This document shows, one piece after another, positions 37,936-64,000 of a DNA stretch of 64,000 nt. Numbering within the stretch: the first letter of the stretch is position 1; each line of letters opens with the position of its first letter. The DNA comes from Citrus sinensis (lineage: Eukaryota > Streptophyta > Magnoliopsida > Sapindales > Rutaceae). Location: positions 3,720,001 through 3,784,000 of the forward strand of contig NC_068564.1 in NCBI RefSeq assembly GCF_022201045.2, given 5' to 3'. A model generated the notes under the pieces. The model was not told the DNA's origin, ran no database searches, and was given only the letters and a program-made list of their open reading frames with translations. The position numbers and the translations under genes were made by a program.

Positions 37936-39124
37936 TGTTAGAGTGCAATTTATGCACTAGTTTTGCATTATTTACTTCCCTTAATATCAATGTTTTGCAC
38001 TTAATAATAGTGATTTACTTATGTTTTACTTTTGTAGGTGCAATTCTATTGATTGATGATAAAATTGAGCTATAAGATGATGTTTAAGGATGATTGTTCT
38101 CTTGGAGAAATTATGAGCGTCAGAAGAACTTTGTTGATAAGGCGTGGGCGCGTGCTGTCAACTGCGGACCTGCAGTTTTTAGTTTAACGTGTTTTGTATT
38201 TTTGGTTATTTTTGTAATTACGAATTTAATATTTCAGATATTAGTATTTTATTTTAAATAGAATTCTAAAAGAGAGGAGAGAGAGAGTATTTAAGGGAGG
38301 AATCTATTGTGAAAAGGGGGGATTTTGGATTGGAGAAAAAGAAACCCTAGATCTAATTTTTCTCTTCTCTCTATGAGGAACTAAACCCATTTTTCTGGTT
38401 GAAGGTTAATGAAGCTTTGATTCATCACTACTGTGAGATCTTTCTTGTGCTTTAATTGTTTTATTACTTTTTGGGTATTTGTTTATTCTCTGAATTATTT
38501 TCATGATTATGTTTGTTAATTAGGTAATGGGCCACTATTTAATTATCAACTTAATCTATTGTCAATTAAAGGATTCATCGTATGAAGAATTTAATGTTTG
38601 TGACAAATAACATAGCAGAGAGTTGTGTTGTGAGAATAAACAATCTAATTTAAATGAATCATCATATGTGTTGATTAGGATTTGGGTCTCTCTGGTTTTT
38701 CAGGCTGTCAATTGATTAAATTCTATGATCGTATCTAGGGTTGTCTATTGATTAGGGAAATAACCAACGGTCGTACCTTGGTTATCGACTAGTTAAGGAG
38801 AGATTGGCTATTAGAAGGTCTCAGTAGCTATAACCGGTCTATTCATGAGTAATAATAATCTATATTTGAATCAATGATCAGTAGTCGAATCAAGCTGAGT
38901 TAATTCCTTCAACCAGAGCTTTCTCCAATTTGAATTACAACTTTAATTTGCATTCTTGTTATTTTAATTTGATTTTTATTATTGTCAACAATTCCCCTAT
39001 TTTACGTTTTACGTTTCAAAAGGATTTAATTAATTACCGATCTCTGTGGACACGACCCTGCTCAATCACTATACACAATTTATTTAGAGTAGGAATTTAT
39101 TTTTGTTGGCTTCGACAACCATCA
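37936..39124 (+). repeat. LTR 1
   Basis: Starts TGTTAGAGTGCAATTT and ends about ACCATCA, five bases before the PBS; 1,189 bp. A TATTTAAG TATA-like box lies at 38289-38296. The end is set by PBS position, so it could be a few bases off. Confidence 0.88.
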
Positions 39125-39129
39125 AATTT

Positions 39130-39147
39130 TGGCGCCGTTGCCGGGGA
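39130..39147 (+). other. Primer-binding site, tRNA-Asp type, unit 1
   Basis: TGGCGCCGTTGCCGGGGA is complementary over most of its length to the 3' end of plant tRNA-Asp, the primer typical of Athila-group elements. Confidence 0.88.
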
Positions 39148-39189
39148 TTGGTGTCATTTATTTAATCCTTTTTACGTTTTACTTGGTGT

Positions 39190-41550
39190 ATGGTTCGTTC
39201 TTCTCGTACAGGTACACTTTCGTTTGATCCTGAAATTGAGAAGACAGCTCGCCAGCTGAGACAGCAGACTAAGCGAGCTAAGCAACGATCCTCGTCGCCT
39301 TTGCTTTTTAAAACAGATACGGTGCCTAATTTAGTTGAATCATCTAGCGATTCGGAAGAACAAGTGATGGATAGACCTGCACCTGTAGAAAGAACTCTTA
39401 GAGAGTTAGCTGAACCAGACTTGAATCAGCAACCACTCTGCATTCAATATGTAGATTTGGAGGTAAATTTTGAATTAAAGTCTGGTCTTATTCATTTATT
39501 ACCCAAGTTTCATGGTTTTGCAGGTGAAGATCCTCATAAACATCTTAAGGAGTTTCATGTTGTGTGCTCAAGTATGAGACCACAAGGCGTGACTGAAGAG
39601 CAGATTAAGCTGCGTGCTTTTCCGTTCTCTGTAGATGGGCTAGCTAAAGATTGGTTGTATTACTTGCCTCCTGGATCGATTACAACGTGGAATGATTTGA
39701 AGAAGCAGTTCCTCGAGAAGTACTTTCCTGCTTCAAGAGCTGCTAACATCAGAAAAGACATTTGTGGGATCAGACAACTTCCTGGGGAGACTTTATATGA
39801 GTATTGGGAGCGATTCAAACAATTGTGTGCCAGCTGTCCTCAACATCAGATTTCTGATCAACTTCTTATTCAATATTTTTACGAAGGATTATCATTGATG
39901 GATAGGAGTATGATAGATGCTGCTAGTGGAGGCGTGTTGGTGAACAAGACCCCTACTCAAGCAAGGGAGTTGATCTCAAATATGGCTGCCAATGCACAAC
40001 AATTTGGCAGCAGACAAGATGCCACTTCAAGAACGGTGAATGAGGTAAATATTTCTTCTGTTGAACAACGTTTAGATAAACTTACTTCTCTTGTGGAAAA
40101 GTTTGTTGTAGGTAATGTGCAACAGGTGAAGACTTGTGGCATTTGTTACAATATGGGTCATTCAACTGATATGTGTCCTACACTTCAAGAAGAACCCGTT
40201 GAACAAGCCAATGCAGTTGGAGGATTTCCAAGCATGCCTCAGAGGAGGTATGATCCTTATGCACAAACATACAATCCAGGATGGAAGGATCATCCCAACT
40301 TCAGCTATGGAGTTAGGCCGTCAGGATTCCCACAACAGTATCCACCAAGACAACCAACACCTCCACAGTCAAACTCCAAGTCAGGTATACCTCTTGAAGA
40401 AATTGTTAAATCACTTGCGACTAACACTCAACAATTTCAGCAGGCAACTACGGCAAGCATTCAGAACTTGGAGAACCAAATGAGTCAATTGGCGACTGCA
40501 GTGAGCCGTCTGGAGTCTCAAGTATTAGGGAGATTGCCTTCACAATCTGAGGTGAATCCAAAGCAAAACGTTAGTGCTGTCATCCTTAGAAGTGGGAAGG
40601 AGTTGCAAGAGCCTAGTAAGAAAGTGACAAAGCATGTAGAAGATGAGCTTGAGAAGAATGAATTGATGCCTAAATCTCAAGATGCGCAACCCACCAGAGC
40701 GAAACCCCTACCTATTGTGATACCTCCTCCTTTTCCAAGCCGGTTTGCAAAATCCAAAAAGGAGGAACAAGAGAAAGACATCCTTGAGACATTTTGCAAG
40801 GTTGAGGTAAATATTCCTTTATTAGATGCTATAAAACAGATACCTCGATATGCTAAAGTCCTTAAGGAACTATGCACCTCTAAGAGAAAATTAAGAGGAG
40901 GTGAAAAAGTTCACATGGGGGAGAATATTTCAGCAGTTCTTCAAAAGAAACTACCTCCTAAGTGCAAGGATCCAGGTATGTTTACTATTCCTTGTAAAAT
41001 TGGTAGTGTTAGAATTGAAAAGGCTTTGTTAGATCTAGGAGCTTCTATTAATGTCATGCCTCGTTCTATTTATTCATCTTTGAATATTGGTCCATTAAAA
41101 GAAACTGGCGTGATAATTCAACTAGCCGATAGGTCTAATGCATATCCTGATGGGGTATTAGAAGATGTCTTAGTACAAGTTAATGAGTTAGTTTTTCCTG
41201 CTGATTTTTATGTACTTGATATGGAAGATGATAACTCCTCTAATTCTGTCCCAATTTTGCTAGGAAGACCTTTTCTTAAGACTGCTAGGACTAAAATGGA
41301 TGTACATAAAGGGACTCTCACTATGGAGTTTGATGGAGAGGTTATAGAATTCAATATGAATGATGCCATGAAATATCATAGTGATGAACATTCAGTATTC
41401 TCTGTGGATGTTATTAACCCTATAGTGCAGGAAGTTTTTTACAAGAAAAAGACGAAGACATTTCATGATAGAATGATTTTGAGAAAGGAGTTCTCTGTTG
41501 GTCAAAAAGTTCTTCTTTTTCATTCTAAACTTAAACTTTTTTTCGGGTAA
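39190..41550 (+). CDS. Gag-protease polyprotein fused to integrase C-terminal piece, unit 1
   Basis: Open frame of 786 codons, starting 43 bp after the PBS. Residues about 98-275 are a retrotransposon gag domain (FAGEDPHKHLKEF, LKKQFLEKYFP, YEYWERFKQLC). A CCHC zinc knuckle CGICYNMGHSTDMC is at 316-329. A Pro/Gln-rich linker and a short coiled-coil-like segment follow, and then a retroviral-type aspartic protease with active site DLGAS (D615) and LLGRPFLKT near 690. From about residue 750 the frame passes straight into the integrase C-terminal region (FHDRMILRKEFSVGQKVLLF). It ends early because of an extra T in a T run (LFFG then stop). Gag and protease look functional; pol has been deleted. 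Family order and the PBS point to the Tat/Athila group. Confidence 0.92.
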   Translation: MVRSSRTGTLSFDPEIEKTARQLRQQTKRAKQRSSSPLLFKTDTVPNLVESSSDSEEQVMDRPAPVERTLRELAEPDLNQQPLCIQYVDLEVNFELKSGLIHLLPKFHGFAGEDPHKHLKEFHVVCSSMRPQGVTEEQIKLRAFPFSVDGLAKDWLYYLPPGSITTWNDLKKQFLEKYFPASRAANIRKDICGIRQLPGETLYEYWERFKQLCASCPQHQISDQLLIQYFYEGLSLMDRSMIDAASGGVLVNKTPTQARELISNMAANAQQFGSRQDATSRTVNEVNISSVEQRLDKLTSLVEKFVVGNVQQVKTCGICYNMGHSTDMCPTLQEEPVEQANAVGGFPSMPQRRYDPYAQTYNPGWKDHPNFSYGVRPSGFPQQYPPRQPTPPQSNSKSGIPLEEIVKSLATNTQQFQQATTASIQNLENQMSQLATAVSRLESQVLGRLPSQSEVNPKQNVSAVILRSGKELQEPSKKVTKHVEDELEKNELMPKSQDAQPTRAKPLPIVIPPPFPSRFAKSKKEEQEKDILETFCKVEVNIPLLDAIKQIPRYAKVLKELCTSKRKLRGGEKVHMGENISAVLQKKLPPKCKDPGMFTIPCKIGSVRIEKALLDLGASINVMPRSIYSSLNIGPLKETGVIIQLADRSNAYPDGVLEDVLVQVNELVFPADFYVLDMEDDNSSNSVPILLGRPFLKTARTKMDVHKGTLTMEFDGEVIEFNMNDAMKYHSDEHSVFSVDVINPIVQEVFYKKKTKTFHDRMILRKEFSVGQKVLLFHSKLKLFFG

Positions 41551-41740
41551 ATTACGTTCTTGCTGGGTTGGACCTTTTATTGTTACTAATGTTTTTCCTC
41601 ATGGTGCAGTTGAGATTCGGAGTCCGACCTCTGACAGAGTTCTTAAGGTTAATGGTCATCGCTTAAAATCTTTTTATGAAGGTTTTTCGGTGAATATCGT
41701 GGAGGATGTGGCTCTCGAGAGTCCCAATTATGGAGATTGA
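41546..41740 (+). pseudogene. Integrase C-terminal tail, out of frame, unit 1
   Basis: GKLRSCWVGPFIVTNVFPHG, SDRVLKVNGHRLKSFYEGF: the last part of a Ty3/gypsy integrase, in a frame shifted by one base from the gag-protease frame. All four units share the shift. It is the only pol remnant in the unit. Confidence 0.85.
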
Positions 41741-41778
41741 TGCATAAATGTGTCTAGCCAAAGACATAAAACAAAGGC

Positions 41779-41801
41779 GCTTTTTGGGAGGCAACCCAAA
41801 T
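41779..41801 (+). repeat. Conserved hairpin after the integrase tail, unit 1
   Basis: The GCGCTTTTTGGGAGGCAACC region. TTTGGG and CCCAAA pair around AGGCAA. The GGGAGGCAACCCA word is familiar just after integrase in Tat/Athila elements. Its function is unknown. Confidence 0.5.
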
Positions 41802-42223
41802 GATTTATTTATTTTGGTTTTTGTCATATCTTCTTTTAATTTTGATTCAGATTTTTTTTTAAAAAAATAATGTGTTTGCTTATTTTGGTCAGAAGAAAAT
41901 TTTTGATAAGGCGTGCCCACGTCTTAACTAATAAGTACTTCTGTGATTTTTAACGTGAAATGGTTTTAAGGCGTGCCCACGTGCTTATTAGAAAAGTACT
42001 TCTGAAATTTTTTTTTTTTTTGTGTCTCAAAGTAGTTCATCATAAAAAAAAAATTATTTATTTATTTATTTATTTGAAAATTAAAAAAAAAACTTTTTTT
42101 TTTCTTTTCCTTTCTTTTCTTTCTTTTTTATATATATATTTTTTTTATTTGAAAAAAAAAACGAAAAAAAAATAAAATTTACTGTTCACAAAATCCCTAA
42201 TTCACAGAATTGGTTTTCTTCTC

Positions 42224-42830
42224 CAGCCTTCACCGAGCAGCCACGCAGCACCAGCGATCCACCATCGCGAACCAGCCCACGCAGCAGCAGCAGCAACTGT
42301 GCGCGCAGCCAGCTCCATCCCACGCGTGCGCATATTCAGCCTTCACCGAGCAGCCACGCAGCACCAGCGATCCACCATCGCGAACCAGCCCACGCAGCAG
42401 CAGCAGCAACTGTGCGCGCAGCCAGCTCCATCCCACGCGTGCGCATATTCAGCCTTCACCGAGCAGCCACGCAGCAACCCGCGAGCGCAGATCCAGCCTT
42501 TGCCTAGCAGCGCGCAGAACCAACGTCAGCCCAGCTCTCACGTGCAATCAACCCCAGCGCGCAGATCCAGCAACCCACTAGCGCAGCAGAACCAGCCCCA
42601 GTAGCGCGCAGCATCCCGCACGCAACCAGCATCACCAGCGCGCAATCAGCAATCCCCCAGCGCGCAGCAACAGCCGCAGCACGCAGATCCAGCGTCACCA
42701 GTTCGCAGCATCAGTCCCATCCGCGCGCAACTGAACCAGCAGCCGTGTACCCGCAAGCTCCAGTCGAGCAGCAATAGTCCGCAACCAGCCTACGACCTGC
42801 ATTCCAGCCGCATGAATCGAAATCTGTGAC
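42224..42830 (+). repeat. GC-rich block with 113-bp tandem repeat, unit 1
   Basis: A 113-bp unit beginning CAGCCTTCACCGAGCAGCCA starts at 42224, 42337 and 42450 (about 2.3 copies). A run of GCGCGCAGC, CAGCAGCAG and CCAGC words continues to about 42830. It contrasts sharply with the AT-rich surroundings. Overlapping ORFs are low-complexity Ala/Gln/Pro/Ser and probably not genes. Confidence 0.8.
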
Positions 42831-42993
42831 AAGATGGAGCAGAATTTGGCCGCATACTTCAAGAGTGTGGGATTTATCCCACCATTCCCGCCAAGCCCAT
42901 AGACGTTATGAGGATCAAAGCTCACAATTCAGGGAAGTTTTTGCCTTTAATCTTTTATCCTGACGCTTTAATTTTTATGTGAGCTTTGATTAT

Positions 42994-43036
42994 CTTACAT
43001 TGGGGACAATGTAAGTTCTTGGTGTGGGGGAGGGAT
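42994..43036 (+). other. Hairpin plus internal polypurine-like tract, unit 1
   Basis: CTTACATTG, loop GGGA, CAATGTAAG (perfect 9-bp stem, 42994-43015) is followed at once by TTGGTGTGGGGGAGGGATTT. The second motif closely resembles the true PPT before the next LTR, 1.4 kb downstream. Confidence 0.65.
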
Positions 43037-43039
43037 TTT

Positions 43040-44440
43040 TGCATTATTGATGTCTGGAATTATTGTTTTCACTCTACTTATTTTTTTTTTTTTCACTCTA
43101 CTCATCCTTAAATGATTTTGGAGTTAGTATGCTTTATATATTATTAATTTTCTTTTCCTTTATCTCTCACTACTCTTTTCCCATCTATCTCACATTATTT
43201 ACATCTATTTTTTTTTCTATCATACTTTTTCATCACTCACATTTTATCTTTCATTTTTTTTACTACATACATCTTTCTTGCTTATTATCCTTTTTACCTT
43301 TCCTTTTATATCTCACTCATACCTTCTTCTCATTCTACACCACTATTGATGGTTGATTCATTTGAAGAGTGTACAGGATTTGATGGCAAATTTACCAACT
43401 TTGTGAGGATTTGAGCCTATGAGCAACCACTTTGCTCTAATTATTTTTGTTATGTGAATATCAATCCTAGTTTGTTTATTCTAGAACTTGCTTTATTATG
43501 CATGTTGAAGCCACATTACAAGATTTTATGCATTAAAATGATAAGGGCAAACCATTTACCATTTTTCTATTCTCGCATTTTCCTTTTTCTCTACCCGAAG
43601 ACCTTTATTTGCTATCTTTGTTTGAGCCTTAACCATTACCCATCTAATTCTCTCCGTCTACTTAACCATTTTTCTTCTTTTTGAGCCTCAATTTAAGGAG
43701 ATTTTTGGACTCATTGTGTGGATATATTTTGTTGCTTTTTCTACCTTGTAATAAAGTTTCTCAATTAGATCAACAAGCATTATGCTTGAATTAAATTGTG
43801 CAAGGTTCGTTTCTTTTGTTTGATTCAAAAAAAAAAAACAACAACAAAAAAACAAAAAAAAAGAAAAAAAAAAGAAAAAAGAAAAATTGAAAAAAAAATC
43901 GAAATAAAAAATGTTTACATTCTTGGTGACTTGAGTAGAAATAAGCATTTTGATATCATAAGTTCATTCAATGAGTTCATTCTTCTCGTTTTGATCTCTT
44001 TTTCTTTCGTAAACCTTTCTTTTTCATTTAACACATTTAACCCCATTACAACCCTTTTAAGACCCTTAAATTTTTGCATTTTATTCATGTTTTGTGGATT
44101 GAGATGTGATATATGAGCAAGCTTATGGTAATAGCATTCTTTGATTTGATTTGAGTGGATAAATGACACCCTAAACACTTTGAGTGCATGGAGTGAAGTT
44201 ATTGAGAGGGCTATTACATCTTGTTGCACTTGAATTTTGAACGAATCTTCTTGGTGGTTGAATGTTCTTATTCTATCTTATGAAATTCTATGCTTTAAAA
44301 TCCTTGTCTCTCGAACGTTGAACGACTTAATTTCTTGAGGTATGCTTGCTTAAAATTATTTTTGGATGAGTTGAGATGAGAATTTAGTGGAGATTTGAGA
44401 TTAGTCTTGAGTTATATGCTTGAGGACAAGCATCATCTTG
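43040..44440. other. AT-rich 3' non-coding region, unit 1
   Basis: Pyrimidine-rich, then a poly-A/purine segment near 43827-43910, then sequence with no coding signature. ORFs of 76-106 codons on both strands are low complexity. The same region recurs in units 2-4. Confidence 0.6.
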
Positions 44441-44453
44441 GTGTGGGGGAATT
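44441..44453 (+). other. Polypurine tract before LTR 2
   Basis: GTGTGGGGGAATT lies directly before the TGTTAGAG start of the next LTR, the expected plus-strand primer site. Confidence 0.8.
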
Positions 44454-45642
44454 TGTTAGAGTGCAATTTATGCACTAGTTTTGCATTATTTACTTCCCTT
44501 AATATCAATGTTTTGCACTTAATAATAGTGATTTACTTATGTTTTACTTTTGTAGGTGCAATTCTATTGATTGATGATAAAATTGAGCTATAAGATGATG
44601 TTTAAGGATGATTGTTCTCTTGGAGAAATTATGAGCGTCAGAAGAACTTTGTTGATAAGGCGTGGGCGCGTGCTGTCAACTGCGGACCTGCAGTTTTTAG
44701 TTTAACGTGTTTTGTATTTTTGGTTATTTTTGTAATTACGAATTTAATATTTCAGATATTAGTATTTTATTTTAAATAGAATTCTAAAAGAGAGGAGAGA
44801 GAGAGTATTTAAGGGAGGAATCTATTGTGAAAAGGGGGGATTTTGGATTGGAGAAAAAGAAACCCTAGATCTAATTTTTCTCTTCTCTCTATGAGGAACT
44901 AAACCCATTTTTCTGGTTGAAGGTTAATGAAGCTTTGATTCATCACTACTGTGAGATCTTTCTTGTGCTTTAATTGTTTTATTACTTTTTGGGTATTTGT
45001 TTATTCTCTGAATTATTTTCATGATTATGTTTGTTAATTAGGTAATGGGCCACTATTTAATTATCAACTTAATCTATTGTCAATTAAAGGATTCATCGTA
45101 TGAAGAATTTAATGTTTGTGACAAATAACATAGCAGAGAGTTGTGTTGTGAGAATAAACAATCTAATTTAAATGAATCATCATATGTGTTGATTAGGATT
45201 TGGGTCTCTCTGGTTTTTCAGGCTGTCAATTGATTAAATTCTATGATCGTATCTAGGGTTGTCTATTGATTAGGGAAATAACCAACGGTCGTACCTTGGT
45301 TATCGACTAGTTAAGGAGAGATTGGCTATTAGAAGGTCTCAGTAGCTATAACCGGTCTATTCATGAGTAATAATAATCTATATTTGAATCAATGATCAGT
45401 AGTCGAATCAAGCTGAGTTAATTCCTTCAACCAGAGCTTTCTCCAATTTGAATTACAACTTTAATTTGCATTCTTGTTATTTTAATTTGATTTTTATTAT
45501 TGTCAACAATTCCCCTATTTTACGTTTTACGTTTCAAAAGGATTTAATTAATTACCGATCTCTGTGGACACGACCCTGCTCAATCACTATACACAATTTA
45601 TTTAGAGTAGGAATTTATTTTTGTTGGCTTCGACAACCATCA
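44454..45642 (+). repeat. LTR 2 (shared between units 1 and 2)
   Basis: Looks identical to LTR 1 over 1,189 bp. It has a PPT on its left and a PBS on its right, so it serves as 3' LTR of unit 1 and 5' LTR of unit 2. Confidence 0.9.
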
Positions 45643-45647
45643 AATTT

Positions 45648-45665
45648 TGGCGCCGTTGCCGGGGA
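45648..45665 (+). other. Primer-binding site, unit 2
   Basis: Same TGGCGCCGTTGCCGGGGA motif, five bases after LTR 2. Confidence 0.88.
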
Positions 45666-45707
45666 TTGGTGTCATTTATTTAATCCTTTTTACGTTTTAC
45701 TTGGTGT

Positions 45708-48068
45708 ATGGTTCGTTCTTCTCGTACAGGTACACTTTCGTTTGATCCTGAAATTGAGAAGACAGCTCGCCAGCTGAGACAGCAGACTAAGCGAGCTAAG
45801 CAACGATCCTCGTCGCCTTTGCTTTTTAAAACAGATACGGTGCCTAATTTAGTTGAATCATCTAGCGATTCGGAAGAACAAGTGATGGATAGACCTGCAC
45901 CTGTAGAAAGAACTCTTAGAGAGTTAGCTGAACCAGACTTGAATCAGCAACCACTCTGCATTCAATATGTAGATTTGGAGGTAAATTTTGAATTAAAGTC
46001 TGGTCTTATTCATTTATTACCCAAGTTTCATGGTTTTGCAGGTGAAGATCCTCATAAACATCTTAAGGAGTTTCATGTTGTGTGCTCAAGTATGAGACCA
46101 CAAGGCGTGACTGAAGAGCAGATTAAGCTGCGTGCTTTTCCGTTCTCTGTAGATGGGCTAGCTAAAGATTGGTTGTATTACTTGCCTCCTGGATCGATTA
46201 CAACGTGGAATGATTTGAAGAAGCAGTTCCTCGAGAAGTACTTTCCTGCTTCAAGAGCTGCTAACATCAGAAAAGACATTTGTGGGATCAGACAACTTCC
46301 TGGGGAGACTTTATATGAGTATTGGGAGCGATTCAAACAATTGTGTGCCAGCTGTCCTCAACATCAGATTTCTGATCAACTTCTTATTCAATATTTTTAC
46401 GAAGGATTATCATTGATGGATAGGAGTATGATAGATGCTGCTAGTGGAGGCGTGTTGGTGAACAAGACCCCTACTCAAGCAAGGGAGTTGATCTCAAATA
46501 TGGCTGCCAATGCACAACAATTTGGCAGCAGACAAGATGCCACTTCAAGAACGGTGAATGAGGTAAATATTTCTTCTGTTGAACAACGTTTAGATAAACT
46601 TACTTCTCTTGTGGAAAAGTTTGTTGTAGGTAATGTGCAACAGGTGAAGACTTGTGGCATTTGTTACAATATGGGTCATTCAACTGATATGTGTCCTACA
46701 CTTCAAGAAGAACCCGTTGAACAAGCCAATGCAGTTGGAGGATTTCCAAGCATGCCTCAGAGGAGGTATGATCCTTATGCACAAACATACAATCCAGGAT
46801 GGAAGGATCATCCCAACTTCAGCTATGGAGTTAGGCCGTCAGGATTCCCACAACAGTATCCACCAAGACAACCAACACCTCCACAGTCAAACTCCAAGTC
46901 AGGTATACCTCTTGAAGAAATTGTTAAATCACTTGCGACTAACACTCAACAATTTCAGCAGGCAACTACGGCAAGCATTCAGAACTTGGAGAACCAAATG
47001 AGTCAATTGGCGACTGCAGTGAGCCGTCTGGAGTCTCAAGTATTAGGGAGATTGCCTTCACAATCTGAGGTGAATCCAAAGCAAAACGTTAGTGCTGTCA
47101 TCCTTAGAAGTGGGAAGGAGTTGCAAGAGCCTAGTAAGAAAGTGACAAAGCATGTAGAAGATGAGCTTGAGAAGAATGAATTGATGCCTAAATCTCAAGA
47201 TGCGCAACCCACCAGAGCGAAACCCCTACCTATTGTGATACCTCCTCCTTTTCCAAGCCGGTTTGCAAAATCCAAAAAGGAGGAACAAGAGAAAGACATC
47301 CTTGAGACATTTTGCAAGGTTGAGGTAAATATTCCTTTATTAGATGCTATAAAACAGATACCTCGATATGCTAAAGTCCTTAAGGAACTATGCACCTCTA
47401 AGAGAAAATTAAGAGGAGGTGAAAAAGTTCACATGGGGGAGAATATTTCAGCAGTTCTTCAAAAGAAACTACCTCCTAAGTGCAAGGATCCAGGTATGTT
47501 TACTATTCCTTGTAAAATTGGTAGTGTTAGAATTGAAAAGGCTTTGTTAGATCTAGGAGCTTCTATTAATGTCATGCCTCGTTCTATTTATTCATCTTTG
47601 AATATTGGTCCATTAAAAGAAACTGGCGTGATAATTCAACTAGCCGATAGGTCTAATGCATATCCTGATGGGGTATTAGAAGATGTCTTAGTACAAGTTA
47701 ATGAGTTAGTTTTTCCTGCTGATTTTTATGTACTTGATATGGAAGATGATAACTCCTCTAATTCTGTCCCAATTTTGCTAGGAAGACCTTTTCTTAAGAC
47801 TGCTAGGACTAAAATGGATGTACATAAAGGGACTCTCACTATGGAGTTTGATGGAGAGGTTATAGAATTCAATATGAATGATGCCATGAAATATCATAGT
47901 GATGAACATTCAGTATTCTCTGTGGATGTTATTAACCCTATAGTGCAGGAAGTTTTTTACAAGAAAAAGACGAAGACATTTCATGATAGAATGATTTTGA
48001 GAAAGGAGTTCTCTGTTGGTCAAAAAGTTCTTCTTTTTCATTCTAAACTTAAACTTTTTTTCGGGTAA
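45708..48068 (+). CDS. Gag-protease polyprotein, unit 2
   Basis: 786 codons, translated identically to unit 1: gag domain, CCHC knuckle, DLGAS protease, truncated integrase tail and the same early stop after LFFG. Identity at this level means copying is too recent for selection to be inferred from comparison among units. Confidence 0.92.
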   Translation: MVRSSRTGTLSFDPEIEKTARQLRQQTKRAKQRSSSPLLFKTDTVPNLVESSSDSEEQVMDRPAPVERTLRELAEPDLNQQPLCIQYVDLEVNFELKSGLIHLLPKFHGFAGEDPHKHLKEFHVVCSSMRPQGVTEEQIKLRAFPFSVDGLAKDWLYYLPPGSITTWNDLKKQFLEKYFPASRAANIRKDICGIRQLPGETLYEYWERFKQLCASCPQHQISDQLLIQYFYEGLSLMDRSMIDAASGGVLVNKTPTQARELISNMAANAQQFGSRQDATSRTVNEVNISSVEQRLDKLTSLVEKFVVGNVQQVKTCGICYNMGHSTDMCPTLQEEPVEQANAVGGFPSMPQRRYDPYAQTYNPGWKDHPNFSYGVRPSGFPQQYPPRQPTPPQSNSKSGIPLEEIVKSLATNTQQFQQATTASIQNLENQMSQLATAVSRLESQVLGRLPSQSEVNPKQNVSAVILRSGKELQEPSKKVTKHVEDELEKNELMPKSQDAQPTRAKPLPIVIPPPFPSRFAKSKKEEQEKDILETFCKVEVNIPLLDAIKQIPRYAKVLKELCTSKRKLRGGEKVHMGENISAVLQKKLPPKCKDPGMFTIPCKIGSVRIEKALLDLGASINVMPRSIYSSLNIGPLKETGVIIQLADRSNAYPDGVLEDVLVQVNELVFPADFYVLDMEDDNSSNSVPILLGRPFLKTARTKMDVHKGTLTMEFDGEVIEFNMNDAMKYHSDEHSVFSVDVINPIVQEVFYKKKTKTFHDRMILRKEFSVGQKVLLFHSKLKLFFG

Positions 48069-48258
48069 ATTACGTTCTTGCTGGGTTGGACCTTTTATTG
48101 TTACTAATGTTTTTCCTCATGGTGCAGTTGAGATTCGGAGTCCGACCTCTGACAGAGTTCTTAAGGTTAATGGTCATCGCTTAAAATCTTTTTATGAAGG
48201 TTTTTCGGTGAATATCGTGGAGGATGTGGCTCTCGAGAGTCCCAATTATGGAGATTGA
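48064..48258 (+). pseudogene. Integrase C-terminal tail, unit 2
   Basis: Same out-of-frame tail as unit 1 (WVGPFIVTNVFPHGAVEI), with the same extra T upstream. Confidence 0.85.
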
Positions 48259-48741
48259 TGCATAAATGTGTCTAGCCAAAGACATAAAACAAAGGCGCTT
48301 TTTGGGAGGCAACCCAAATGATTTATTTATTTTGGTTTTTGTCATATCTTCTTTTAATTTTGATTCAGATTTTTTTTTAAAAAAATAATGTGTTTGCTTA
48401 TTTTGGTCAGAAGAAAATTTTTGATAAGGCGTGCCCACGTCTTAACTAATAAGTACTTCTGTGATTTTTAACGTGAAATGGTTTTAAGGCGTGCCCACGT
48501 GCTTATTAGAAAAGTACTTCTGAAATTTTTTTTTTTTTTGTGTCTCAAAGTAGTTCATCATAAAAAAAAAATTATTTATTTATTTATTTATTTGAAAATT
48601 AAAAAAAAAACTTTTTTTTTTCTTTTCCTTTCTTTTCTTTCTTTTTTATATATATATTTTTTTTATTTGAAAAAAAAAACGAAAAAAAAATAAAATTTAC
48701 TGTTCACAAAATCCCTAATTCACAGAATTGGTTTTCTTCTC

Positions 48742-49348: not shown

Positions 49349-49511
49349 AAGATGGAGCAGAATTTGGCCGCATACTTCAAGAGTGTGGGATTTATCCCAC
49401 CATTCCCGCCAAGCCCATAGACGTTATGAGGATCAAAGCTCACAATTCAGGGAAGTTTTTGCCTTTAATCTTTTATCCTGACGCTTTAATTTTTATGTGA
49501 GCTTTGATTAT

Positions 49512-49554
49512 CTTACATTGGGGACAATGTAAGTTCTTGGTGTGGGGGAGGGAT
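49512..49554 (+). other. Hairpin plus internal polypurine-like tract, unit 2
   Basis: Same 9-bp stem (49512-49533) and following purine tract as unit 1. Confidence 0.65.
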
Positions 49555-54584: not shown

Positions 54585-54774
54585 ATTACGTTCTTGCTGG
54601 GTTGGACCTTTTATTGTTACTAATGTTTTTCCTCATGGTGCAGTTGAGATTCGGAGTCCGACCTCTGACAGAGTTCTTAAGGTTAATGGTCATCGCTTAA
54701 AATCTTTTTATGAAGGTTTTTCGGTGAATATCGTGGAGGATGTGGCTCTCGAGAGTCCCAATTATGGAGATTGA
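54580..54774 (+). pseudogene. Integrase C-terminal tail, unit 3
   Basis: Same out-of-frame remnant as the other units. Confidence 0.85.
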
Positions 54775-55258
54775 TGCATAAATGTGTCTAGCCAAAGACA
54801 TAAAACAAAGGCGCTTTTTGGGAGGCAACCCAAATGATTTATTTATTTTGGTTTTTGTCATATCTTCTTTTAATTTTGATTCAGATTTTTTTTTAAAAAA
54901 ATAATGTGTTTGCTTATTTTGGTCAGAAGAAAATTTTTGATAAGGCGTGCCCACGTCTTAACTAATAAGTACTTCTGTGATTTTTAACGTGAAATGGTTT
55001 TAAGGCGTGCCCACGTGCTTATTAGAAAAGTACTTCTGAAATTTTTTTTTTTTTTTGTGTCTCAAAGTAGTTCATCATAAAAAAAAAATTATTTATTTAT
55101 TTATTTATTTGAAAATTAAAAAAAAAACTTTTTTTTTTCTTTTCCTTTCTTTTCTTTCTTTTTTATATATATATTTTTTTTATTTGAAAAAAAAAACGAA
55201 AAAAAAATAAAATTTACTGTTCACAAAATCCCTAATTCACAGAATTGGTTTTCTTCTC

Positions 55259-55865
55259 CAGCCTTCACCGAGCAGCCACGCAGCACCAGCGATCCACCAT
55301 CGCGAACCAGCCCACGCAGCAGCAGCAGCAACTGTGCGCGCAGCCAGCTCCATCCCACGCGTGCGCATATTCAGCCTTCACCGAGCAGCCACGCAGCACC
55401 AGCGATCCACCATCGCGAACCAGCCCACGCAGCAGCAGCAGCAACTGTGCGCGCAGCCAGCTCCATCCCACGCGTGCGCATATTCAGCCTTCACCGAGCA
55501 GCCACGCAGCAACCCGCGAGCGCAGATCCAGCCTTTGCCTAGCAGCGCGCAGAACCAACGTCAGCCCAGCTCTCACGTGCAATCAACCCCAGCGCGCAGA
55601 TCCAGCAACCCACTAGCGCAGCAGAACCAGCCCCAGTAGCGCGCAGCATCCCGCACGCAACCAGCATCACCAGCGCGCAATCAGCAATCCCCCAGCGCGC
55701 AGCAACAGCCGCAGCACGCAGATCCAGCGTCACCAGTTCGCAGCATCAGTCCCATCCGCGCGCAACTGAACCAGCAGCCGTGTACCCGCAAGCTCCAGTC
55801 GAGCAGCAATAGTCCGCAACCAGCCTACGACCTGCATTCCAGCCGCATGAATCGAAATCTGTGAC
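55259..55865 (+). repeat. GC-rich block with 113-bp tandem repeat, unit 3
   Basis: Same block and repeat number as unit 1. Confidence 0.8.
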
Positions 55866-56028
55866 AAGATGGAGCAGAATTTGGCCGCATACTTCAAGAG
55901 TGTGGGATTTATCCCACCATTCCCGCCAAGCCCATAGACGTTATGAGGATCAAAGCTCACAATTCAGGGAAGTTTTTGCCTTTAATCTTTTATCCTGACG
56001 CTTTAATTTTTATGTGAGCTTTGATTAT

Positions 56029-56071
56029 CTTACATTGGGGACAATGTAAGTTCTTGGTGTGGGGGAGGGAT
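56029..56071 (+). other. Hairpin plus internal polypurine-like tract, unit 3
   Basis: Same stem-loop (56029-56050) and purine tract. Confidence 0.65.
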
Positions 56072-57473
56072 TTTTGCATTATTGATGTCTGGAATTATTG
56101 TTTTCACTCTACTTATTTTTTTTTTTTCACTCTACTCATCCTTAAATGATTTTGGAGTTAGTATGCTTTATATATTATTAATTTTCTTTTCCTTTATCTC
56201 TCACTACTCTTTTCCCATCTATCTCACATTATTTACATCTATTTTTTTTTCTATCATACTTTTTCATCACTCACATTTTATCTTTCATTTTTTTTACTAC
56301 ATACATCTTTCTTGCTTATTATCCTTTTTACCTTTCCTTTTATATCTCACTCATACCTTCTTCTCATTCTACACCACTATTGATGGTTGATTCATTTGAA
56401 GAGTGTACAGGATTTGATGGCAAATTTACCAACTTTGTGAGGATTTGAGCCTATGAGCAACCACTTTGCTCTAATTATTTTTGTTATGTGAATATCAATC
56501 CTAGTTTGTTTATTCTAGAACTTGCTTTATTATGCATGTTGAAGCCACATTACAAGATTTTATGCATTAAAATGATAAGGGCAAACCATTTACCATTTTT
56601 CTATTCTCGCATTTTCCTTTTTCTCTACCCGAAGACCTTTATTTGCTATCTTTGTTTGAGCCTTAACCATTACCCATCTAATTCTCTCCGTCTACTTAAC
56701 CATTTTTCTTCTTTTTGAGCCTCAATTTAAGGAGATTTTTGGACTCATTGTGTGGATATATTTTGTTGCTTTTTCTACCTTGTAATAAAGTTTCTCAATT
56801 AGATCAACAAGCATTATGCTTGAATTAAATTGTGCAAGGTTCGTTTCTTTTGTTTGATTCAAAAAAAAAAACAACAACAAAAAAACAAAAAAAAAGAAAA
56901 AAAAAAGAAAAAAGAAAAATTGAAAAAAAAATCGAAATAAAAAATGTTTACATTCTTGGTGACTTGAGTAGAAATAAGCATTTTGATATCATAAGTTCAT
57001 TCAATGAGTTCATTCTTCTCGTTTTGATCTCTTTTTCTTTCGTAAACCTTTCTTTTTCATTTAACACATTTAACCCCATTACAACCCTTTTAAGACCCTT
57101 AAATTTTTGCATTTTATTCATGTTTTGTGGATTGAGATGTGATATATGAGCAAGCTTATGGTAATAGCATTCTTTGATTTGATTTGAGTGGATAAATGAC
57201 ACCCTAAACACTTTGAGTGCATGGAGTGAAGTTATTGAGAGGGCTATTACATCTTGTTGCACTTGAATTTTGAACGAATCTTCTTGGTGGTTGAATGTTC
57301 TTATTCTATCTTATGAAATTCTATGCTTTAAAATCCTTGTCTCTCGAACGTTGAACGACTTAATTTCTTGAGGTATGCTTGCTTAAAATTATTTTTGGAT
57401 GAGTTGAGATGAGAATTTAGTGGAGATTTGAGATTAGTCTTGAGTTATATGCTTGAGGACAAGCATCATCTTG

Positions 57474-57486
57474 GTGTGGGGGAATT
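57474..57486 (+). other. Polypurine tract before LTR 4
   Basis: GTGTGGGGGAATT directly before LTR 4. Confidence 0.8.
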
Positions 57487-58675
57487 TGTTAGAGTGCAAT
57501 TTATGCACTAGTTTTGCATTATTTACTTCCCTTAATATCAATGTTTTGCACTTAATAATAGTGATTTACTTATGTTTTACTTTTGTAGGTGCAATTCTAT
57601 TGATTGATGATAAAATTGAGCTATAAGATGATGTTTAAGGATGATTGTTCTCTTGGAGAAATTATGAGCGTCAGAAGAACTTTGTTGATAAGGCGTGGGC
57701 GCGTGCTGTCAACTGCGGACCTGCAGTTTTTAGTTTAACGTGTTTTGTATTTTTGGTTATTTTTGTAATTACGAATTTAATATTTCAGATATTAGTATTT
57801 TATTTTAAATAGAATTCTAAAAGAGAGGAGAGAGAGAGTATTTAAGGGAGGAATCTATTGTGAAAAGGGGGGATTTTGGATTGGAGAAAAAGAAACCCTA
57901 GATCTAATTTTTCTCTTCTCTCTATGAGGAACTAAACCCATTTTTCTGGTTGAAGGTTAATGAAGCTTTGATTCATCACTACTGTGAGATCTTTCTTGTG
58001 CTTTAATTGTTTTATTACTTTTTGGGTATTTGTTTATTCTCTGAATTATTTTCATGATTATGTTTGTTAATTAGGTAATGGGCCACTATTTAATTATCAA
58101 CTTAATCTATTGTCAATTAAAGGATTCATCGTATGAAGAATTTAATGTTTGTGACAAATAACATAGCAGAGAGTTGTGTTGTGAGAATAAACAATCTAAT
58201 TTAAATGAATCATCATATGTGTTGATTAGGATTTGGGTCTCTCTGGTTTTTCAGGCTGTCAATTGATTAAATTCTATGATCGTATCTAGGGTTGTCTATT
58301 GATTAGGGAAATAACCAACGGTCGTACCTTGGTTATCGACTAGTTAAGGAGAGATTGGCTATTAGAAGGTCTCAGTAGCTATAACCGGTCTATTCATGAG
58401 TAATAATAATCTATATTTGAATCAATGATCAGTAGTCGAATCAAGCTGAGTTAATTCCTTCAACCAGAGCTTTCTCCAATTTGAATTACAACTTTAATTT
58501 GCATTCTTGTTATTTTAATTTGATTTTTATTATTGTCAACAATTCCCCTATTTTACGTTTTACGTTTCAAAAGGATTTAATTAATTACCGATCTCTGTGG
58601 ACACGACCCTGCTCAATCACTATACACAATTTATTTAGAGTAGGAATTTATTTTTGTTGGCTTCGACAACCATCA
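57487..58675 (+). repeat. LTR 4 (shared between units 3 and 4)
   Basis: 1,189 bp, no difference from LTR 1 noticed. PPT on the left, PBS on the right. Confidence 0.9.
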
Positions 58676-58680
58676 AATTT

Positions 58681-58698
58681 TGGCGCCGTTGCCGGGGA
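58681..58698 (+). other. Primer-binding site, unit 4
   Basis: Same tRNA-Asp-type PBS, five bases after LTR 4. Confidence 0.88.
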
Positions 58699-58740
58699 TT
58701 GGTGTCATTTATTTAATCCTTTTTACGTTTTACTTGGTGT

Positions 58741-61101
58741 ATGGTTCGTTCTTCTCGTACAGGTACACTTTCGTTTGATCCTGAAATTGAGAAGACAGCT
58801 CGCCAGCTGAGACAGCAGACTAAGCGAGCTAAGCAACGATCCTCGTCGCCTTTGCTTTTTAAAACAGATACGGTGCCTAATTTAGTTGAATCATCTAGCG
58901 ATTCGGAAGAACAAGTGATGGATAGACCTGCACCTGTAGAAAGAACTCTTAGAGAGTTAGCTGAACCAGACTTGAATCAGCAACCACTCTGCATTCAATA
59001 TGTAGATTTGGAGGTAAATTTTGAATTAAAGTCTGGTCTTATTCATTTATTACCCAAGTTTCATGGTTTTGCAGGTGAAGATCCTCATAAACATCTTAAG
59101 GAGTTTCATGTTGTGTGCTCAAGTATGAGACCACAAGGCGTGACTGAAGAGCAGATTAAGCTGCGTGCTTTTCCGTTCTCTGTAGATGGGCTAGCTAAAG
59201 ATTGGTTGTATTACTTGCCTCCTGGATCGATTACAACGTGGAATGATTTGAAGAAGCAGTTCCTCGAGAAGTACTTTCCTGCTTCAAGAGCTGCTAACAT
59301 CAGAAAAGACATTTGTGGGATCAGACAACTTCCTGGGGAGACTTTATATGAGTATTGGGAGCGATTCAAACAATTGTGTGCCAGCTGTCCTCAACATCAG
59401 ATTTCTGATCAACTTCTTATTCAATATTTTTACGAAGGATTATCATTGATGGATAGGAGTATGATAGATGCTGCTAGTGGAGGCGTGTTGGTGAACAAGA
59501 CCCCTACTCAAGCAAGGGAGTTGATCTCAAATATGGCTGCCAATGCACAACAATTTGGCAGCAGACAAGATGCCACTTCAAGAACGGTGAATGAGGTAAA
59601 TATTTCTTCTGTTGAACAACGTTTAGATAAACTTACTTCTCTTGTGGAAAAGTTTGTTGTAGGTAATGTGCAACAGGTGAAGACTTGTGGCATTTGTTAC
59701 AATATGGGTCATTCAACTGATATGTGTCCTACACTTCAAGAAGAACCCGTTGAACAAGCCAATGCAGTTGGAGGATTTCCAAGCATGCCTCAGAGGAGGT
59801 ATGATCCTTATGCACAAACATACAATCCAGGATGGAAGGATCATCCCAACTTCAGCTATGGAGTTAGGCCGTCAGGATTCCCACAACAGTATCCACCAAG
59901 ACAACCAACACCTCCACAGTCAAACTCCAAGTCAGGTATACCTCTTGAAGAAATTGTTAAATCACTTGCGACTAACACTCAACAATTTCAGCAGGCAACT
60001 ACGGCAAGCATTCAGAACTTGGAGAACCAAATGAGTCAATTGGCGACTGCAGTGAGCCGTCTGGAGTCTCAAGTATTAGGGAGATTGCCTTCACAATCTG
60101 AGGTGAATCCAAAGCAAAACGTTAGTGCTGTCATCTTTAGAAGTGGGAAGGAGTTGCAAGAGCCTAGTAAGAAAGTGACAAAGCATGTAGAAGATGAGCT
60201 TGAGAAGAATGAATTGATGCCTAAATCTCAAGATGCGCAACCCACCAGAGCGAAACCCCTACCTATTGTGATACCTCCTCCTTTTCCAAGCCGGTTTGCA
60301 AAATCCAAAAAGGAGGAACAAGAGAAAGACATCCTTGAGACATTTTGCAAGGTTGAGGTAAATATTCCTTTATTAGATGCTATAAAACAGATACCTCGAT
60401 ATGCTAAAGTCCTTAAGGAACTATGCACCTCTAAGAGAAAATTAAGAGGAGGTGAAAAAGTTCACATGGGGGAGAATATTTCAGCAGTTCTTCAAAAGAA
60501 ACTACCTCCTAAGTGCAAGGATCCAGGTATGTTTACTATTCCTTGTAAAATTGGTAGTGTTAGAATTGAAAAGGCTTTGTTAGATCTAGGAGCTTCTATT
60601 AATGTCATGCCTCGTTCTATTTATTCATCTTTGAATATTGGTCCATTAAAAGAAACTGGCGTGATAATTCAACTAGCCGATAGGTCTAATGCATATCCTG
60701 ATGGGGTATTAGAAGATGTCTTAGTACAAGTTAATGAGTTAGTTTTTCCTGCTGATTTTTATGTACTTGATATGGAAGATGATAACTCCTCTAATTCTGT
60801 CCCAATTTTGCTAGGAAGACCTTTTCTTAAGACTGCTAGGACTAAAATGGATGTACATAAAGGGACTCTCACTATGGAGTTTGATGGAGAGGTTATAGAA
60901 TTCAATATGAATGATGCCATGAAATATCATAGTGATGAACATTCAGTATTCTCTGTGGATGTTATTAACCCTATAGTGCAGGAAGTTTTTTACAAGAAAA
61001 AGACGAAGACATTTCATGATAGAATGATTTTGAGAAAGGAGTTCTCTGTTGGTCAAAAAGTTCTTCTTTTTCATTCTAAACTTAAACTTTTTTTCGGGTA
61101 A
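58741..61101 (+). CDS. Gag-protease polyprotein, unit 4
   Basis: 786 codons. It differs from the other three by one residue, Leu to Phe in SAVI(L/F)RSGKEL, in the linker between the zinc knuckle and the protease (codon containing 60136). Domain content and the shared frameshifted end are otherwise the same. Confidence 0.92.
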   Translation: MVRSSRTGTLSFDPEIEKTARQLRQQTKRAKQRSSSPLLFKTDTVPNLVESSSDSEEQVMDRPAPVERTLRELAEPDLNQQPLCIQYVDLEVNFELKSGLIHLLPKFHGFAGEDPHKHLKEFHVVCSSMRPQGVTEEQIKLRAFPFSVDGLAKDWLYYLPPGSITTWNDLKKQFLEKYFPASRAANIRKDICGIRQLPGETLYEYWERFKQLCASCPQHQISDQLLIQYFYEGLSLMDRSMIDAASGGVLVNKTPTQARELISNMAANAQQFGSRQDATSRTVNEVNISSVEQRLDKLTSLVEKFVVGNVQQVKTCGICYNMGHSTDMCPTLQEEPVEQANAVGGFPSMPQRRYDPYAQTYNPGWKDHPNFSYGVRPSGFPQQYPPRQPTPPQSNSKSGIPLEEIVKSLATNTQQFQQATTASIQNLENQMSQLATAVSRLESQVLGRLPSQSEVNPKQNVSAVIFRSGKELQEPSKKVTKHVEDELEKNELMPKSQDAQPTRAKPLPIVIPPPFPSRFAKSKKEEQEKDILETFCKVEVNIPLLDAIKQIPRYAKVLKELCTSKRKLRGGEKVHMGENISAVLQKKLPPKCKDPGMFTIPCKIGSVRIEKALLDLGASINVMPRSIYSSLNIGPLKETGVIIQLADRSNAYPDGVLEDVLVQVNELVFPADFYVLDMEDDNSSNSVPILLGRPFLKTARTKMDVHKGTLTMEFDGEVIEFNMNDAMKYHSDEHSVFSVDVINPIVQEVFYKKKTKTFHDRMILRKEFSVGQKVLLFHSKLKLFFG

Positions 61102-61291
61102 ATTACGTTCTTGCTGGGTTGGACCTTTTATTGTTACTAATGTTTTTCCTCATGGTGCAGTTGAGATTCGGAGTCCGACCTCTGACAGAGTTCTTAAGGT
61201 TAATGGTCATCGCTTAAAATCTTTTTATGAAGGTTTTTCGGTGAATATCGTGGAGGATGTGGCTCTCGAGAGTCCCAATTATGGAGATTGA
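61097..61291 (+). pseudogene. Integrase C-terminal tail, unit 4
   Basis: Same out-of-frame remnant as the other units. Confidence 0.85.
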
Positions 61292-61774
61292 TGCATAAAT
61301 GTGTCTAGCCAAAGACATAAAACAAAGGCGCTTTTTGGGAGGCAACCCAAATGATTTATTTATTTTGGTTTTTGTCATATCTTCTTTTAATTTTGATTCA
61401 GATTTTTTTTTAAAAAAATAATGTGTTTGCTTATTTTGGTCAGAAGAAAATTTTTGATAAGGCGTGCCCACGTCTTAACTAATAAGTACTTCTGTGATTT
61501 TTAACGTGAAATGGTTTTAAGGCGTGCCCACGTGCTTATTAGAAAAGTACTTCTGAAATTTTTTTTTTTTTTGTGTCTCAAAGTAGTTCATCATAAAAAA
61601 AAAATTATTTATTTATTTATTTATTTGAAAATTAAAAAAAAAACTTTTTTTTTTCTTTTCCTTTCTTTTCTTTCTTTTTTATATATATATTTTTTTTATT
61701 TGAAAAAAAAAACGAAAAAAAAATAAAATTTACTGTTCACAAAATCCCTAATTCACAGAATTGGTTTTCTTCTC

Positions 61775-62381
61775 CAGCCTTCACCGAGCAGCCACGCAGC
61801 ACCAGCGATCCACCATCGCGAACCAGCCCACGCAGCAGCAGCAGCAACTGTGCGCGCAGCCAGCTCCATCCCACGCGTGCGCATATTCAGCCTTCACCGA
61901 GCAGCCACGCAGCACCAGCGATCCACCATCGCGAACCAGCCCACGCAGCAGCAGCAGCAACTGTGCGCGCAGCCAGCTCCATCCCACGCGTGCGCATATT
62001 CAGCCTTCACCGAGCAGCCACGCAGCAACCCGCGAGCGCAGATCCAGCCTTTGCCTAGCAGCGCGCAGAACCAACGTCAGCCCAGCTCTCACGTGCAATC
62101 AACCCCAGCGCGCAGATCCAGCAACCCACTAGCGCAGCAGAACCAGCCCCAGTAGCGCGCAGCATCCCGCACGCAACCAGCATCACCAGCGCGCAATCAG
62201 CAATCCCCCAGCGCGCAGCAACAGCCGCAGCACGCAGATCCAGCGTCACCAGTTCGCAGCATCAGTCCCATCCGCGCGCAACTGAACCAGCAGCCGTGTA
62301 CCCGCAAGCTCCAGTCGAGCAGCAATAGTCCGCAACCAGCCTACGACCTGCATTCCAGCCGCATGAATCGAAATCTGTGAC
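61775..62381 (+). repeat. GC-rich block with 113-bp tandem repeat, unit 4
   Basis: Same block and repeat number as unit 1. Confidence 0.8.
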
Positions 62382-62544
62382 AAGATGGAGCAGAATTTGG
62401 CCGCATACTTCAAGAGTGTGGGATTTATCCCACCATTCCCGCCAAGCCCATAGACGTTATGAGGATCAAAGCTCACAATTCAGGGAAGTTTTTGCCTTTA
62501 ATCTTTTATCCTGACGCTTTAATTTTTATGTGAGCTTTGATTAT

Positions 62545-62587
62545 CTTACATTGGGGACAATGTAAGTTCTTGGTGTGGGGGAGGGAT
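62545..62587 (+). other. Hairpin plus internal polypurine-like tract, unit 4
   Basis: Same stem-loop (62545-62566) and purine tract. Confidence 0.65.
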
Positions 62588-63990
62588 TTTTGCATTATTG
62601 ATGTCTGGAATTATTGTTTTCACTCTACTTATTTTTTTTTTTTCACTCTACTCATCCTTAAATGATTTTGGAGTTAGTATGCTTTATATATTATTAATTT
62701 TCTTTTCCTTTATCTCTCACTACTCTTTTCCCATCTATCTCACATTATTTACATCTATTTTTTTTTCTATCATACTTTTTCATCACTCACATTTTATCTT
62801 TCATTTTTTTTACTACATACATCTTTCTTGCTTATTATCCTTTTTACCTTTCCTTTTATATCTCACTCATACCTTCTTCTCATTCTACACCACTATTGAT
62901 GGTTGATTCATTTGAAGAGTGTACAGGATTTGATGGCAAATTTACCAACTTTGTGAGGATTTGAGCCTATGAGCAACCACTTTGCTCTAATTATTTTTGT
63001 TATGTGAATATCAATCCTAGTTTGTTTATTCTAGAACTTGCTTTATTATGCATGTTGAAGCCACATTACAAGATTTTATGCATTAAAATGATAAGGGCAA
63101 ACCATTTACCATTTTTCTATTCTCGCATTTTCCTTTTTCTCTACCCGAAGACCTTTATTTGCTATCTTTGTTTGAGCCTTAACCATTACCCATCTAATTC
63201 TCTCCGTCTACTTAACCATTTTTCTTCTTTTTGAGCCTCAATTTAAGGAGATTTTTGGACTCATTGTGTGGATATATTTTGTTGCTTTTTCTACCTTGTA
63301 ATAAAGTTTCTCAATTAGATCAACAAGCATTATGCTTGAATTAAATTGTGCAAGGTTCGTTTCTTTTGTTTGATTCAAAAAAAAAAAACAACAACAAAAA
63401 AACAAAAAAAAAGAAAAAAAAAAGAAAAAAGAAAAATTGAAAAAAAAATCGAAATAAAAAATGTTTACATTCTTGGTGACTTGAGTAGAAATAAGCATTT
63501 TGATATCATAAGTTCATTCAATGAGTTCATTCTTCTCGTTTTGATCTCTTTTTCTTTCGTAAACCTTTCTTTTTCATTTAACACATTTAACCCCATTACA
63601 ACCCTTTTAAGACCCTTAAATTTTTGCATTTTATTCATGTTTTGTGGATTGAGATGTGATATATGAGCAAGCTTATGGTAATAGCATTCTTTGATTTGAT
63701 TTGAGTGGATAAATGACACCCTAAACACTTTGAGTGCATGGAGTGAAGTTATTGAGAGGGCTATTACATCTTGTTGCACTTGAATTTTGAACGAATCTTC
63801 TTGGTGGTTGAATGTTCTTATTCTATCTTATGAAATTCTATGCTTTAAAATCCTTGTCTCTCGAACGTTGAACGACTTAATTTCTTGAGGTATGCTTGCT
63901 TAAAATTATTTTTGGATGAGTTGAGATGAGAATTTAGTGGAGATTTGAGATTAGTCTTGAGTTATATGCTTGAGGACAAGCATCATCTTG

Positions 63991-64000
63991 GTGTGGGGGA
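63991..64000 (+). other. Polypurine tract of unit 4, truncated by window end
   Basis: GTGTGGGGGA is the last ten bases of the window. By comparison with the other units, ATT and LTR 5 should follow. Confidence 0.75.

Follow-up and report, generated by a model that had tools for sequence, protein, structure and literature searches.

A five-unit tandem array of a gag-protease retrotransposon tracing to a single integration in Citrus sinensis

How does a retrotransposon come to stand several times head to tail at one chromosomal site, with each inner long terminal repeat (LTR) serving two neighbouring units? The question is raised by a locus of Citrus sinensis that begins within the window, by which we mean the whole 64,000-nucleotide stretch of DNA analysed (C9:3720001-3784000), and continues beyond its end; the genome searched comprised 299.7 Mb in 11 contigs. 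At C9:3757936-3791709, six LTRs alternate with five interiors and an LTR stands at both ends, which makes the locus a tandem retrotransposon array (Table 1). The LTRs start at C9:3757936, 3764454, 3770970, 3777487, 3784004 and 3790521, the last of them ending at 3791709, and all six are identical, each 1,189 bp long with TG...CA ends. The interiors of units 1 to 5 measure 5,329, 5,327, 5,328, 5,328 and 5,328 bp, a unit being about 6.5 kb and the whole array about 33.8 kb (33,774 bp) in length. The polypurine tract (PPT) GGTGTGGGGGAATT lies directly 5' of every inner LTR, and AATTT followed by the primer binding site (PBS)-like sequence TGGCGCCGTTGCCGGGGA, which we take to be of the tRNA-Asp type, lies directly 3' of LTRs 1 to 5.

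Table 1. Features of the array and its borders; positions are those of the window unless another sequence is named
Feature	Position	Strand	Remarks
Left target site duplication (TSD) CTTTT	37931..37935	.	Partner at C9:3791710-3791714, outside window; single CTTTT in C2 empty site
LTR 1, 1,189 bp, TG...CA	37936..39124	+	Identical to the other five LTRs
PBS-like TGGCGCCGTTGCCGGGGA	39130..39147	+	Same region after LTRs 1-5
Interior 1, 5,329 bp	39125..44453	+	
Gag-protease ORF of unit 1, 786 aa	39190..41550	+	Pfam matches Retrotrans_gag, Asp_protease_2
PPT 5' of shared LTR 2	44440..44453	+	
LTR 2, common to units 1 and 2	44454..45642	+	
Interior 2, 5,327 bp	45643..50969	+	
Gag-protease ORF of unit 2	45708..48068	+	
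LTR 3, common to units 2 and 3	50970..52158	+	
Interior 3, 5,328 bp	52159..57486	+	
Gag-protease ORF of unit 3	52224..54584	+	
LTR 4, common to units 3 and 4	57487..58675	+	
Interior 4	58676..64000	+	Last 3 bp beyond window end
Gag-protease ORF of unit 4	58741..61101	+	One missense difference at residue 466
LTR 5	C9:3784004-3785192	+	Outside window
Interior 5		+	Outside window
LTR 6	C9:3790521-3791709	+	Outside window
Right-flank Copia-type pol pieces	L009 8165-9085, L010 648-1100	reverse	Pfam

A sequence-only reading of the window had put LTR starts at 37936, 44454, 50970 and 57487 with spacings of 6,518, 6,516 and 6,517 bp, values that proved exact, and had described PPT-LTR-PBS junctions with inner LTRs serving two units, as is indeed the case at every inner LTR. 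The fifth LTR that it predicted just past the window is present, at window position 64004. Its head-to-tail arrangement with shared LTRs stands, whereas its count of four units gives way to five, since a sixth LTR closes a fifth interior.

One 5-bp TSD, CTTTT, surrounds the whole array, before LTR 1 and after LTR 6. No inner TSD occurs at the inner junctions, where the LTRs start after the PPT and end into AATTT-PBS. When the two flanks were joined without the array and used as a query, C2:2294078-2294188 matched at 100% over 111 bases across the insertion point, and the surrounding region (C2:2293001-2295200) is a paralogous unoccupied site with CTTTT once and no array. This paralog is 98.1% identical to the left flank over 1,021 aligned positions and then fully identical over the last 73 bp before the array; on the right, 43 bp including CTTTT are identical, after which the sequences diverge. 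The single TSD and the paralogous empty site together show a single integration: one insertion at C9 became five units. Genome-wide, the junction patterns of the family were found at 164 PPT-LTR and 170 LTR-PBS sites and reversed-pattern controls gave none, which, taken with a perfect 5-bp TSD whose motif occurs once in the C2 empty site, argues that the array is not a product of chance.

The flanks hold further mobile elements. A non-autonomous element of about 595 bp at window positions 37268-37862, presumably of the hAT type, ends 73 bp upstream of the array; its ends are TAGGGGTGGGCA and TGCCCACCCTTA, and it is bordered by a perfect 8-bp TSD, AATAATAT, at 37260-37267 and 37863-37870. The C2 paralog is without this element and has AATAATAT once. 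From about 0.45 kb to the right of the array there are pieces of a Copia-type pol in reverse orientation (RVT_2, E 1.5e-40; Pol_BBD, E 9e-25). Elsewhere in the window, fragments of a Copia reverse transcriptase (RT; RVT_2, E 1.5e-7) and a copia gag (Retrotran_gag_2, E 7.1e-15) were detected at 702-1127 and 15965-16417, and a minisatellite of 75/87-bp units with a 12-bp TACCCGACTTCA-like motif occupies 22140-22516. Pfam searches also recognised exons of host genes at 5478-5987 (-), 26228-27489 (+) and 30153-35325 (+), the matches being to glycosyl hydrolase 9, DUF4220, GH127 beta-L-arabinofuranosidase and, in a downstream ORF, AbfB below the cut-off; the ORF at 30153 gave an additional below-cut-off match to Elongin_A.

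What, then, is the element that is repeated? The Pfam scan of the array unit covered its 786-aa ORF, which matched Retrotrans_gag (E 4.8e-22) and, with 23.3 bits and slightly under the cut-off of 24.3, Asp_protease_2 (E 1e-4). Every unit keeps this gag-protease ORF open; units 4 and 5 each carry a single missense difference. Comparison with two longer relatives, at C5:18.74 Mb and C2:3.13 Mb, whose LTRs are 97-98% identical to that of the array, showed that one continuous stretch of about 2.8 kb is absent from the array unit, and in both comparisons the matches flanking the gap overlap by 5 nt, which is what a microhomology deletion would leave. In the C5:18.74 Mb relative, RT, RNase H and the integrase core all fall within the stretch (L027 3239-6050), this copy matching RVT_1 (1.4e-29), RT_RNaseH (1.1e-34), rve (5.5e-15) and ATHILA (3.8e-13); the C2:3.13 Mb relative (L029) matched ATHILA (2.1e-14) in a Pfam scan with its pol ORF outside the scan. 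An ATHILA ORF and RT/integrase are thus found in an autonomous relative sharing the LTR, as in the Athila lineage of Ty3/gypsy elements. Judging from these comparisons of sequence, the array unit appears to have arisen by deletion from an Athila-lineage element and would need proteins in trans. Non-autonomous LTR elements with gag but no RT are called TR-GAG, and the array unit likewise has gag and lacks the RT region, although TR-GAG names an element and not an array. Identity with a TRIM is ruled out by the 6.5-kb unit with its 786-aa ORF. Of 7,968 candidates scored in searches with the gag-protease protein, 1,689 matched at E <= 0.001; among the 120 matches listed are proteins of Citrus sinensis, C. 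clementina, Coffea, Sesamum, Ipomoea, Alnus and others, some of them with RT or integrase domains. Downstream of gag, the GC-rich region of unit 1 contains a 113-bp subrepeat (2.3 copies, 98% alike, 42224-42484), also seen at the equivalent place in the other three units of the window.

Four singleton substitutions in 26,640 bp and three homopolymer indels distinguish the five interiors. Of the substitutions, 1829 G>T and 3925 T>A belong to unit 5, 2650 C>T to unit 4 and 4695 G>A to unit 2; position 3925 lies at a T/A run. The only variant common to more than one unit is the length of an A-run in units 2 and 3, and no nested sharing of substitutions was found across the five interiors; the differences are star-like. 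The expected number of LTR substitutions, should LTRs mutate like interiors, is 1.07 by hand calculation, and the zero observed is unremarkable. Four substitutions in 33,774 bp correspond to 1.2e-4 per site. Taking a substitution rate of 1.3e-8 per site per year, the array would be about 9,000 years old (Poisson range roughly 2,500-23,000), an estimate that polishing of the continuous long reads (CLR) over such near-identical units could bias either way. Identical LTRs and interiors only four substitutions apart agree with the very recent event proposed from the window sequence.

Three of the four derived bases could be read in other copies of the family, and none was seen there: 1829 T in 0 of 13 readable copies, 2650 T in 0 of 12 (11 have C, one G) and 4695 A in 0 of two; for 3925 the number of readable copies was zero. 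Two LTR 41-mers, picked because the fetched copies outside the array lacked them, had six of six and six of seven exact genome matches within it, the marker with six of six lying at window positions 38509-38549; this indicates that the added units stem either from the resident copy or from a template common to both, and not from the dispersed copies of this haplotype that were seen. For a gag 41-mer chosen as private, 5 of 12 exact genome matches lie within the array, and gag variation is therefore common to other family copies. A 600-bp LTR query, for which 40 of 539 candidates were scored, matched at 100% only the six array LTRs, the next match being at 99%, and the other copies compared lie at a distance of about 1% or more from the array LTR. 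Nothing among these 40 scored candidates points to scattered near-identical copies of this haplotype as the source of the array.

Such near-identity also brings up the suspicion, voiced in the sequence-only reading, that an assembler had expanded a repeat, in which case one or two real units would have been multiplied during assembly or by the joining of tandem units. The unit count rests on one assembly, described in the assembly passages of PMC9832951 as built with CANU from 420x PacBio CLR data with 2-kb minimum overlaps, the authors having connected contigs by resolving tandem-repeat units. Three of the seven differences between units are homopolymer lengths and a fourth lies at the T/A run, as this explanation might lead one to expect. 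Against it, the unit-specific substitutions argue for distinct units, the same assembly contains two-unit arrays with TSDs of their own, and the LTR query met no dispersed copy at 100%. Moreover, the corrected-read N50 of 42.0 kb (PMC9832951) exceeds the length of the array and reads spanning 33.8 kb should for that reason exist. The suspicion is weakened, not removed, by the substitutions and the read length, given the CLR data and the joining of tandem units, and we regard expansion by the assembler as unlikely.

The arrangement recurs in the family. Using 117 of the 164 PPT-LTR and 125 of the 170 LTR-PBS sites, we counted at least nine inner LTRs at at least six loci, the C9 array with four of them included, and among the 86 paired interiors listed, 73 measure 4.5-7.5 kb versus 11 of 8.5-13.5 kb. 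The other tandem loci fetched have two units or fewer. Two of them, array A (L012-L013) at C5:18.15 Mb and array B at C5:16.95 Mb, are clean arrays of two units bordered by the TSDs ACATC and CTTAT, respectively. At three more, a truncated piece of gag comes after LTR-interior-LTR; it measures 453 bp at locus D (C9:6.83 Mb), 1,590 bp at C8:7.16 Mb and 428 bp at C3:29.60 Mb. The two gag pieces at C8:7.16 Mb differ at 51 of 1,588 positions and the two LTRs at 10 of 1,196; the divergence of gag exceeds that of the LTRs, and simple duplication is therefore not the explanation. Two related loci do not contribute to the nine inner LTRs: at C9:8.44 Mb a 3' partial interior precedes LTR-interior-LTR and the truncated end has no matching flank, and at C5:18.89 Mb there are three LTRs in the same orientation with only a 3' family interior piece between the last two, LTR differences of 35/1,193 and 64/1,174 marking this as an old locus.

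Family LTRs in opposite orientation accompany the three truncated loci: 5 bp from the outer LTR near locus D (L035-L036), beyond a 333-bp 3' interior piece at C8:7.16 Mb (L025-L026) and about 9 kb past the truncation at C3:29.60 Mb (L023-L024). A Citrus sinensis protein of 999 aa, P0001, contains gag-protease and then the start of a second gag, which ends in FPFSVDGLK, as expected from the truncated second unit at C9:6.83 Mb. Compared by eye, it agrees with a gene model that spans the inner LTR of this tandem; annotators should be warned that gene models may span inner LTRs of tandems in this way.

By which route did one insertion become five units? The sequence-only reading had offered unequal recombination between LTRs or a multimeric or circular intermediate, and both find support as alternatives, the single TSD and the empty site showing one integration. 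Our first choice, with a probability of about 0.5, is that one gag-protease-only copy of the Athila lineage integrated once and then multiplied in place by unequal exchange. A single such copy would have inserted on C9, making the CTTTT duplication; in an unequal exchange between sister chromatids its 5' LTR would have paired with the 3' LTR, giving LTR-interior-LTR-interior-LTR, after which whole units would mispair easily and further units be added. As each exchange can at most double the array, at least three would be required for five units. This route is consistent with the single TSD, the empty C2 site, the identical LTRs, the derived bases unseen in readable family copies and the sister arrays A and B with TSDs of their own. 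It is disfavoured by the units themselves, among which there is no direct trace of successive exchanges. Late duplication also predicts interiors less diverged than the outer LTRs. Units 1 and 5 of the C9 array differ by two interior substitutions versus none between first and last LTR, the interiors of array A by 9/5,269 versus 1/1,190 for its outer LTRs, and those of array B by 3/6,185 versus 0/1,188. Interior divergence is not below outer-LTR divergence in any of the three, contrary to the prediction, and this age test, with few changes, several of them in low-complexity runs, leans against late duplication.

The close rival to in-place exchange, to which we allow a somewhat smaller though still substantial likelihood, is that the array, or a precursor of at least two units, was inserted as DNA that already had multiple LTRs, produced from a read-through concatemer RNA, by template switching among co-packaged RNAs or from nuclear cDNAs or one-LTR circles that recombined ahead of a single integration. 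One TSD, star-like differences and identical LTRs would be expected here too, and the interiors of arrays A and B, at least as diverged as their LTRs, are in keeping with it. Array A lends some further support. At all three of its unit differences that are readable, that is, outside low-complexity runs and read in three or more family copies, the base of unit 1 is present elsewhere in the family: at interior offset 625 in the C5:18.89 Mb locus, at interior offset 2616 in both autonomous relatives and at LTR offset 214 in two LTRs of locus D. The background for such sharing is 17.0/297 (about 6%) for a random other base and 37/297 (about 12%) for the transition base. The pattern favours mixed templates or later gene conversion; it comprises a tiny sample of three sites noticed post hoc, of which one is a CpG and another has its match in a diverged copy only. 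On the other side, a cDNA carrying five units would have to be about 33.8 kb long, the one readable difference of array B outside A-runs is private against two copies, and the C9 array itself gives no sign of mixed templates, none of its derived bases being found in other readable family copies. Multiplication in place keeps its position as first choice; both routes were left open by Morales-Diaz et al. (PMC11899658) as well.

A broader, doubtful proposal is that the gag-only Athila-lineage elements of Citrus are born as arrays, by concatemeric cDNA, template switching among co-packaged RNAs or recombined one-LTR circles integrated in one step. It draws on the youth of the sister arrays, each of which has a TSD of its own, on interiors no younger than the LTRs and on the unit 1 bases of array A that other family members share. 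If true, tandem formation would be part of the replication cycle and not a matter of later chromosomal recombination.

The sequence-only reading went further and saw a retrotransposon turning into a satellite. McGurk and Barbash reportedly proposed in 2018 that tandems with shared LTRs are seeds of satellites, and the head-to-tail, near-identical units would suit an early stage of satellite DNA. The claim did not survive: there are five units at a single locus, host genes lie nearby in the window and the LTR markers (6/6, 6/7) are nearly confined to the array, which makes a satellite in the making highly improbable. Assignment to the satellite DNA class, which is typified by extended arrays of numerous monomers at several loci, is rejected, the array being one locus and the other family tandems fetched having two units or fewer. 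Nothing in the array suggests a new function; it appears to be a recent, copy-number-variable locus that is probably unstable.

Tandems with shared LTRs and one TSD are reported to be common in plants, arrays with one 5-nt TSD having been described in rice and tandems also in three dicots, Arabidopsis, almond and cotton, where Athila elements are enriched among them (PMC11899658). The TLI/IDENTAM structures of that survey (Morales-Diaz et al. 2025, PMC11899658) resemble the C9 array in the alternation of shared LTRs, the LTR ends, the single 5-nt TSD and the high identity, whereas the two loci that it presents in detail have two interiors and three LTRs as against five and six here. For Cassandra, arrays of up to 12 repeats are described, and at least 4,600 three-LTR structures are cited for BARE1 (PMC7215508). 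The Cassandra TRIM arrays share with the C9 array the long series of near-identical LTRs and interiors and the same two candidate mechanisms, but Cassandra, as portrayed there, lacks both gag and pol and contains 5S sequences, unlike the 6.5-kb C9 unit with its open gag-protease ORF (PMC7215508). Complex elements with three and more LTRs were found with LTRtype in Arabidopsis (PMC5379124), the examples given there being from species other than that of the C9 array. Our literature search found no published description of the C9 array, which does not show it to be unpublished. The C9 array is accordingly a clean new example of an arrangement described in other plants and not a new phenomenon. 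The 2025 survey, in the part that bears on mechanism, could not choose between chromosomal recombination and insertion of a ready-made tandem (PMC11899658). For that choice the C9 locus offers a closed TSD, a paralogous empty site and five near-identical units with a few unit-specific markers, and the sister arrays of fewer units that the family has elsewhere in this genome add to its value.
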